34,575 nt of DNA, taken from assembly GCA_001787125.1 (NCBI GenBank), contig MFVU01000015.1:19992-54566 (forward strand), written 5' to 3'. Shown here one piece after another: positions 2,966-30,936 of this stretch. The stretch comes from Candidatus Nomurabacteria bacterium RIFCSPLOWO2_12_FULL_44_11. Lineage in GTDB: Bacteria > Patescibacteriota > Minisyncoccia > Phycocordibacterales > UBA9973. The notes under the pieces are model-generated. The model made no database searches. It saw nothing but the letters and a program-made list of their open reading frames with translations, and was not told the origin of the DNA. Position numbers and translations under genes: made by a program. The stretch's first letter is position 1, and every line of letters starts with the position of its first letter.

Positions 2966-2997
2966 ATAAAAACGAGCTCGCAATGGAGCTTGAAAAC

Positions 2998-3025
2998 ATA
3001 CTAGCAAATAAGGTTAAAAAGTCAA
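2998..3025 (-). promoter_or_regulatory. Sigma70-like promoter TTGACT-16-TAGTAT upstream of rpsS
   Basis: Reverse complement: TTGACT ttttaaccttatttgc TAGTAT, 33 nt upstream of the rpsS ATG and just after a terminator. Confidence 0.65.
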
Positions 3026-3064
3026 ACAAAAAGAATGGGGGGAAACGATGGATTGTTTCCCCCC
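3026..3064 (-). terminator. Rho-independent terminator
   Basis: Reverse complement ggggggaaac-aatccatc-gtttcccccc hairpin followed by ATTCTTTTTGTTT. Confidence 0.85.
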
Positions 3065-3378
3065 TTTCGTGCACGATGGTGACTAGCACCACTGGAGGAC
3101 TGTTAGGCCTCCTTTTTGTGGGAGCGCTGAGGTGGCTCCGCATGACCCTTGGGGCTATGGGGACCCCATCCCGGCTCTTGGAAAATACTAACTCTGACTA
3201 GCATTTACCATGAGCACCAACGACTTGGTTGAGGAACACTAGGGCGATTCCTCTTTACCCTTGGAGCGGAATTTTCATCACGACTCCCAGCGACTCGGCC
3301 ACTCGGCCGAGAGAACGGAGTGACTTCCACCATGCCCTAGATGGCCACCGTCATAGAGTACCCTCCCTTCTCTTTCCA
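3031..3378 (-). ncRNA. Putative autonomous structured ncRNA (family unrecognised)
   Basis: ~345 nt without a convincing minus-strand ORF; promoter upstream, terminator downstream; many hairpins (CTCGGCC-GAGT-GGCCGAG, GAGGAA..TTCCTC, AATGCTA..TTAGTATT, GGAGG..CCTCC, GTGGTG-CTAGT-CACCAT). Confidence 0.6.
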
Positions 3379-3384
3379 TTTAGG

Positions 3385-3412
3385 AATATAGTCCTTTTAA
3401 AAAATAAATCAA
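3385..3412 (-). promoter_or_regulatory. Sigma70-like promoter TTGATT-16-TATATT for the ncRNA candidate
   Basis: Reverse complement: TTGATT tattttttaaaaggac TATATT, immediately after the rplB stop. Confidence 0.6.
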
Positions 3413-3428
3413 CTAAAAAAGTGAATAA

Positions 3429-4271
3429 CTATTCTTTCTTGCCGGACTTGCGTCGGTGGGAGACAATAAATATATTCGAGTATTTTTTCGGAGTGCGGGT
3501 CTTGCGTCCGCCGGTAACTTTGCCCCACTTGGTCTTCGGGCGCTTGATACCGCGGCCTTGGCGGCCCTCACCCCCTCCGTAGGGATGGTCCACCGGGTTC
3601 ATAGCCGTGCCGCGCACCGTCGGGCGAATGCCTTTCCAGCGGCTACGCCCGGCCTTGCCGAAATTCTGCAAATGATACTCTTCGTTCGAGACAACCCCGA
3701 CGGAGGCCCAGCAATTTTCATTTATTTTGCGGATTTCAGTGGAAGGCATCTTCAAATTTGTGTAGCCCTCGGCATTTGCCACCACTTGGGCAAAAATTCC
3801 CGCGGAGCGGCCAATCTTGGCGCCGCCTTGCGGCTTTATTTCAATATTGTAAACAAAAGTTCCGACCGGAATATTTTTCAGAGGCAAGCGATTGCCCGGG
3901 TTAAGTTCTGCTTTTTCGGAAACAATGAAAGAACTTCCCGGCTTGACTGATTTTGGTAAAACCACATATCTTTTCTCTCCATCCTTGTAGATAGCAAGTC
4001 CGATGAAAGCGGAGCGGTTCGGATCGTATTCGACGGAAGTTATCCTAGCCGGGATATCGCGCTTGTTATAGAGAAAATCCACGTCGCGGTACAGGCGCTT
4101 GTGCCCGCCACCCTTATGCCGCATGGTAATGCGGCCGGCGCTGTTGCGACCCACGCTACGCCGGAAACCGTGAAGAAGCGACTTGGTCGGCTCCGTCTGA
4201 GAAAGAACTCCGCGGTAAGTCACATGGGTCATTTGTCGCCTGGATTTACTTGTAGGTTTGTATGATTTCAT
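3429..4271 (-). CDS. rplB: 50S ribosomal protein L2
   Basis: SAGRITMRHKGGGHKRLYR...RGTAMNPVDHPYGGGEG. Confidence 0.98.
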   Translation of the reverse strand: MKSYKPTSKSRRQMTHVTYRGVLSQTEPTKSLLHGFRRSVGRNSAGRITMRHKGGGHKRLYRDVDFLYNKRDIPARITSVEYDPNRSAFIGLAIYKDGEKRYVVLPKSVKPGSSFIVSEKAELNPGNRLPLKNIPVGTFVYNIEIKPQGGAKIGRSAGIFAQVVANAEGYTNLKMPSTEIRKINENCWASVGVVSNEEYHLQNFGKAGRSRWKGIRPTVRGTAMNPVDHPYGGGEGRQGRGIKRPKTKWGKVTGGRKTRTPKKYSNIFIVSHRRKSGKKE

Positions 4272-11852: not shown

Positions 11853-12182
11853 TTACTGGCAAGCACGTCTATCGTACTCGTAGCTCGCGCGAGCGGCAGC
11901 GAGAATCAACCGGCGGTGATATCCCCGCTCAGATTGATTGCGTCCGCCAAGCCGACCGATCGCGCTTTCGAGGATATCATCGGAGATCTGGCCACTAAGC
12001 GCCCAGCCCCGATCATGGATAATCCACCCGCCCTTGCTTTTGACCCACGAAGCTCGTTTGACTCCGAGGGAATCAAAAACGTAATGCCCTTCCGAGGCCG
12101 CGTTAAGGGCAGAAGCTAGGGCGTGAGCCGCAGCATCTTCAGCCAGAGAACCAGCCATCTTGCGAAAATCAACTTCAGTCAA
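11853..12182 (-). CDS. Hypothetical protein (TTG start, SD-like GAGGAGAGG)
   Basis: 109-aa ORF with upstream purine-rich RBS. Confidence 0.5.
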   Translation of the reverse strand: MTEVDFRKMAGSLAEDAAAHALASALNAASEGHYVFDSLGVKRASWVKSKGGWIIHDRGWALSGQISDDILESAIGRLGGRNQSERGYHRRLILAAARASYEYDRRACQ

Positions 12183-30571: not shown

Positions 30572-30642
30572 TTTATTATTCTACCATAATTAATATCGCG
30601 CCGGACGAGGGGATGAAACCCTGCCGGCGCGATGCGTGCTTG

Positions 30643-30855
30643 CTACCTCGGGAGGCAGCCGATCATGTTGAGTGCCGCTTGCCGGCGCGTTTGGCCGAAA
30701 CCTACTGCGCCACCCGTCGCTACGGGTGCAGTTGGATCACGGTAACAAAACCGCATCCAAGCATACGACGAATTCGGATCGTGATCTGGTCGATACAGAA
30801 AACCTCGGGCCTCGATGATAGCTTTGGCTTCCAGTTCTTCTCCACTCTCAGTCAT
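30643..30855 (-). CDS. Hypothetical small protein
   Basis: MTESGEELEAKAIIEARGFLYRP...; longer ORF start would overlap the tRNA. Confidence 0.45.
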   Translation of the reverse strand: MTESGEELEAKAIIEARGFLYRPDHDPNSSYAWMRFCYRDPTAPVATGGAVGFGQTRRQAALNMIGCLPR

Positions 30856-30936
30856 TGCTATATACCTCGTGATCAAAAAGGTTCGAAAGAAGAATAACAT
30901 ATGTTTTGTGAAACACAAAAAGAGGGATACTTCCGG

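Follow-up and report, generated by a model that had tools for sequence, protein, structure and literature searches.

The rplB-rpsS break in the S10 operon of Candidatus Nomurabacteria-like bacteria as a possible site of fast-turnover mini-genes

Introduction

Few gene orders in bacteria are as well conserved as that of the S10 operon. The elements with which an insertion into this operon may be compared include orphan small-protein genes, which are short, led by a Shine-Dalgarno (SD) sequence, without match to a protein family, equipped with a promoter and a terminator of their own and subject to rapid turnover. Intergenic trans-acting small RNAs and large structured non-coding RNAs (ncRNAs), as collected in Rfam, contain several hairpins and end at a strong terminator, and their classes are known by conservation across species. 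The mRNA leaders that mediate autogenous control of ribosomal proteins lie at the start of ribosomal-protein operons.

Here, we analyze a stretch of 34,575 nucleotides (the window) from Candidatus Nomurabacteria bacterium RIFCSPLOWO2_12_FULL_44_11, in which the S10 operon is interrupted between rplB and rpsS. The initial annotation attributed this interruption to a structured ncRNA gene of about 345 nt, which might represent either a new class or a very divergent housekeeping RNA. Literature searches returned no description of the rplB-rpsS spacer.

Results

Organization of the spacer

All features described here are located on the minus strand of the window. The first half of the split operon ends with rplB (L2; positions 3429 to 4271), identified from its open reading frame and a protein search in the genus, and the second half begins with rpsS (S19; 2603 to 2965, with the ATG at 2965). 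The spacer between them measures 463 bp (2966 to 3428) with a GC fraction of 0.48, in agreement with the interruption of about 460 bp reported initially. The unit in the spacer has a consensus promoter, TTGATT-16-TATATT (3385 to 3412), which is found at the same place in relatives and of which the -35 box begins 17 bases past the rplB stop codon. It is followed by an SD sequence, GGGAGGG (3367 to 3361), and the ATG of a five-codon ORF, MTVAI* (3354 to 3337), in a layout like that of the SD-led ORFs of relatives. A GC-rich stretch of about 300 nt, the body of the unit, separates this ORF from a strong predicted intrinsic terminator with a 10-bp stem, GGGGGGAAAC..GTTTCCCCCC, and a T-rich tail (3037 to 3064). 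Promoter and terminator together predict a transcript of about 345 nt (3037 to 3378), with a start near 3378 as judged from the -10 box. The promoter of rpsS and the genes that follow, TTGACT-16-TAGTAT with a TG that extends the -10, lies at 2998 to 3025 and is itself followed by a hairpin close to the 5' end of the predicted rpsS mRNA, AGCUC-loop-GAGCU, and a U-rich stretch (2975 to 2990).

The spacer promoter, the terminator and the new rpsS promoter were thus all located where they had been annotated, and the sequence is consistent with a separate unit that would divide the operon into two transcription units. Many relatives have a terminator between rplB and the unit promoter, whereas the window has none, so that a transcript from rpsJ-rplB would meet its first terminator at the end of the unit.

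Just ahead of the unit promoter, the sequence TTATTCAC (3428 to 3421) resembles the DnaA-box-like sequences TTATCCACA or TTTTCCACA, which were seen near the centre, just upstream of promoter-like sequences, in L239, L244, L251 and L263.

The operon break across the genus

A protein search with rplB located the locus in 76 of 80 genomes of the genus, and the region behind rplB was taken from 75 relatives. The full spacer could be extracted for 68 genomes, that of the window among them, with a median length of 527 bp and a range from 72 to 3753 bp. In a second set of named records, mostly recorded as Ca. Nomurabacteria and other Paceibacterota, the rplB-rpsS gap was at least 100 bp in all 46 loci of the genus (median 519 bp), as compared to medians of 4 to 33 bp for the ten remaining gaps between genes of the operon. 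The split between rplB and rpsS is therefore real and genus-wide. Among the other genera sampled from the order, many likewise had long or variable gaps, some of them close to 100 bp.

Promoters and the rpsS leader

Consensus matches in the region are barely above chance, both for promoters (4, as compared to 2.4 expected) and for terminators (5, as compared to 4.3 expected), and the two promoters of the spacer are credible because relatives have them at the same positions. The unit promoter of the window obtained a weight-matrix score of 23.2 and also matched the exact pattern TTGN3TATTTTN9-11TATAWW. Of 55 spacers longer than 250 bp, 25 scored at least 14 in the forward direction and none did so in reverse, a strand comparison that is partly circular since the matrix was trained on the forward strand. 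The exact pattern occurred 15 times forward and never in reverse in 75.8 kb of spacer, and 12 of these 15 matches are independent, since three of the spacers had served to define the pattern. Across 80 whole genomes it was found about 90 times, and its single occurrence in the genome of the window is at the rplB-rpsS spacer.

The rpsS promoter with its extended -10 (TTTGNTANTAT) is conserved in relatives (L039-L113, L162-L207). Close to the 5' end of the predicted rpsS mRNA, 77 of 84 spacers have a hairpin, mostly of 5 to 7 pairs and followed by a U-rich stretch, as compared to 2.6 in shuffled sequences, and its pairs vary, for example from AAGCUC/GAGCUU to AGGCUC/GAGCCU. Judged from these sequences, the RNA feature that is kept across the genus and beyond is this leader hairpin, which lies outside the 345-nt unit. 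It may function as a 5' stabilizer, an attenuator or a protein-binding leader, and it is a candidate ribosomal-protein leader for which there is no Rfam entry.

Contents of the gap in relatives

Many relatives have a promoter a short distance downstream of rplB, or of the rplB terminator, and then an SD sequence, a short Arg/Lys-rich ORF and a GC-rich terminator. The GC-rich terminator of the window likewise precedes the rpsS promoter, as in this layout. Some relatives have almost nothing beyond a terminator and the rpsS promoter, the shortest content being 72 bp of promoter and leader, and others carry ordinary or mobile-looking genes of up to several kb, such as four ORFs in L050 that resemble pyrimidine-biosynthesis genes and a recombinase-like ORF in L080 (functions recognized by eye). 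Such variation, next to a constant terminator and rpsS promoter, would be expected if the site were a transcriptional boundary only, in which drifting filler separates the terminator of rpsJ-rplB from the promoter and leader of the rpsS half, these being the parts under selection. We consider this unlikely, because relatives also have the promoter of the unit itself in the same position and direction, and because filler would not maintain SD-led basic ORFs on one strand.

These ORFs were strand-specific in that 45 SD-led ORFs of at least 18 amino acids were found in the forward direction of the spacers, as compared to 10 in reverse. For 27 ORFs of at least 15 amino acids behind the promoter, the mean charge per residue was +0.19 in the SD-led frame, as compared to +0.11 and +0.06 in the two alternative frames (p = 0.002). 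On average, codon scores for the small ORFs of relatives were near zero, and a Pfam search with ten of the small proteins gave no match above the curated cut-off. An all-against-all comparison of the small ORFs yielded a single, weak but plausible pair (L062 and L090, 57% over 23 residues); the remaining matches look like ORFs that run through shared promoter sequences. The absence of recognizable homology among the small proteins suggests very fast turnover or divergence, and it means that position, promoter and layout are the grounds for treating them as one class. At the same site, L041 and the first unit of L088 appear non-coding, so that a form of the unit that consists of RNA only may exist. 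In spacers from the order outside the genus, the small-ORF pattern was not clearly present.

Two further elements were observed in subsets of the spacers. About ten relatives (L044, L045, L051, L053, L055, L056, L058, L059, L095 and L098) have in common an AT-rich block, CAACATATTCAAAATTCTGCAACTAGATTTTAAATGAC.., which measures about 100 bp, precedes the rpsS promoter and is absent from the window. L040, L078, L083, L084 and L061 share, as judged by eye, what may be a leader hairpin with a stretch of TTCTTT or CTCTTT, located downstream of the unit promoter and ahead of the SD sequence.

Coding potential of the window copy

No minus-strand ORF of at least 60 amino acids lies wholly inside the 463-bp gap, and the shorter ones have negative or near-zero codon scores, as compared to +0.3 to +0.6 per codon for real genes. 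These scores rule out the minus-strand ORFs of the spacer as ordinary genes and bear out the earlier view that the gap holds no convincing coding sequence on this strand. An SD-led small Arg/Lys-rich ORF was also not found in the window unit: the SD sequence and ATG are present, at a place that matches the ORFs of relatives, but MTVAI* stops at codon six. After the stop, the same frame reopens for about 42 to 43 codons (42 codons at 3205 to 3333) with a basic reading. It is a doubtful gene, with a poor codon score and no SD sequence of its own, and a reopening of about 43 codons is not rare by chance (probability about 0.14, a hand estimate).

Elsewhere on the minus strand of the window, further short GC-rich ORFs without obvious family were seen at 30600 to 30870 and 11853 to 12182, the former followed by a GC-rich inverted repeat.

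Folding of the unit and searches for RNA homologs

The whole predicted transcript including its ends folds with a z-score of -5.65. For the body without the terminator, the z-score was -2.87, with none of 100 shuffled sequences as stable, and that of its complement was -2.31; the two halves of the body had z-scores of -1.91 and -2.66. According to these predictions, the excess folding of the body is modest. Several spacers of relatives that carry ORFs fold equally well or better, and folding is therefore not decisive. Of the structure proposed in the initial annotation, several local hairpins were predicted here too; the long-range helix ACGGUGG/CCAUCGU was absent from the predicted minimum-energy structures.

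At the gathering score, Rfam 15 gave no match in the spacer, in line with the initial annotation, which had seen no hallmark motifs of RNase P, tmRNA or SRP RNA, and at a relaxed score there were chance-level matches only. DNA searches with the body against 60 relatives, 148 genomes of the family, phages and plasmids returned the body itself or chance-level matches, the best non-self match in the 148 family genomes being about 21 bases long (E = 0.03). Two covariance models, one per half of the window unit, recovered the unit itself and one match with an E-value of 0.27 from 80 genomes of the genus; being built from single sequences, these models have limited reach. A new conserved class of ncRNA is thus unsupported, with no homolog by sequence in 148 genomes or by covariance model in 80.

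The unit might nevertheless encode a functional ncRNA specific to this species, a stable RNA of 345 nt that, for example, pairs with mRNAs or binds a protein. This would fit with the predicted promoter and terminator, the lack of a good ORF, the folding of the whole transcript and of the body beyond that of shuffled sequences, and the two relatives that have no clear ORF at the same site. We regard it as improbable, since neither sequence nor structure has a homolog, an SD sequence and ATG are present in the leader, folding at least as good is seen in coding spacers of relatives and the complement folds almost as well.

The suggestion of a very divergent housekeeping RNA fared less well. RNase P RNA and tmRNA were both found elsewhere in the genome of the window, and the models for these families had no match in the spacer. 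Only for SRP RNA did the search of the genome fail: RF00169 and RF01854 found none in the genome of the window and none over the cut-off in 30 relatives, i.e., among 31 genomes of the genus, in which SRP RNA may be strongly divergent. That the spacer holds the missing SRP RNA is very improbable, since this RNA is expected to be conserved between species while the spacer bodies are not, and since the SRP core motif is absent from every spacer on both strands.

Discussion

The explanation that we favour, with some reserve, is that the fixed break in the S10 operon holds a positionally conserved mini-gene unit with fast turnover, of which the window contains a broken or minimal copy. It is probable that the unit of the window represents a mini-gene specific to this species, or the remnant of one, rather than a member of a new RNA class. 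This explanation builds on the gap in all 46 loci, the strand bias of the exact promoter pattern (15 to 0) and of the SD-led ORFs (45 to 10), the charge of the SD-led frame, the correspondingly placed SD sequence and ATG of the window unit, the conserved rpsS promoter and hairpin, and a body without homologs. Against it stand the lack of homology among the small proteins, the two units of non-coding appearance, the near-zero codon scores and the folding of the body beyond that of shuffled sequences.

According to this mini-gene model, a promoter that is common to relatives would start an RNA of about 345 nt, and the strong terminator would end this RNA and also stop read-through from rplB, after which the conserved promoter and 5' hairpin would start transcription anew for rpsS and its downstream genes. 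A site insulated in this manner would tolerate free replacement of its contents from one species to the next. Where relatives have the unit promoter, the product would in most cases be a very small mRNA, presumably translated from its SD sequence into an Arg/Lys-rich protein of about 20 to 80 residues. The window copy keeps the SD sequence and start codon but has most likely lost, or barely retains, the coding part, and its RNA may still be made. More speculatively, the locus may combine a fixed promoter with a changing product, a small basic peptide or an RNA that is replaced in almost every species of the genus but has one and the same role, perhaps on the ribosome or on nucleic acids, with a switch from peptide to RNA in the window; we put this forward as a tentative idea.

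A genus of Ca. Nomurabacteria-like bacteria, along with many sampled genomes of its order, thus breaks the S10 operon at the same point, where a conserved promoter and leader hairpin would restart it and where the gap seems to be used as a slot with fast turnover. The rplB-rpsS slot is a defined place in which to seek unannotated small proteins and RNAs and their origin in reduced genomes. The case also illustrates that hairpins, a promoter and a terminator in one genome are insufficient for claiming a new class of ncRNA.

Among described systems, the units of the relatives are most readily compared with orphan small-protein genes, with which they share the short SD-led frame, the lack of a family match, the rapid turnover and the promoter and terminator of their own. 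They differ in that site and promoter are fixed in a ribosomal-protein operon, and in that the ORF of the window has five codons only. The window unit is like the trans-acting small RNAs and large structured ncRNAs in its intergenic place, several predicted hairpins and strong terminator, but lacks in its body the cross-species conservation and the Rfam match by which those classes are known. Ribosomal-protein leaders correspond to the rpsS hairpin (2975 to 2990), which likewise belongs to a ribosomal-protein operon leader, although typical leaders are much larger and this hairpin, without an Rfam match, is separate from the 345-nt unit.
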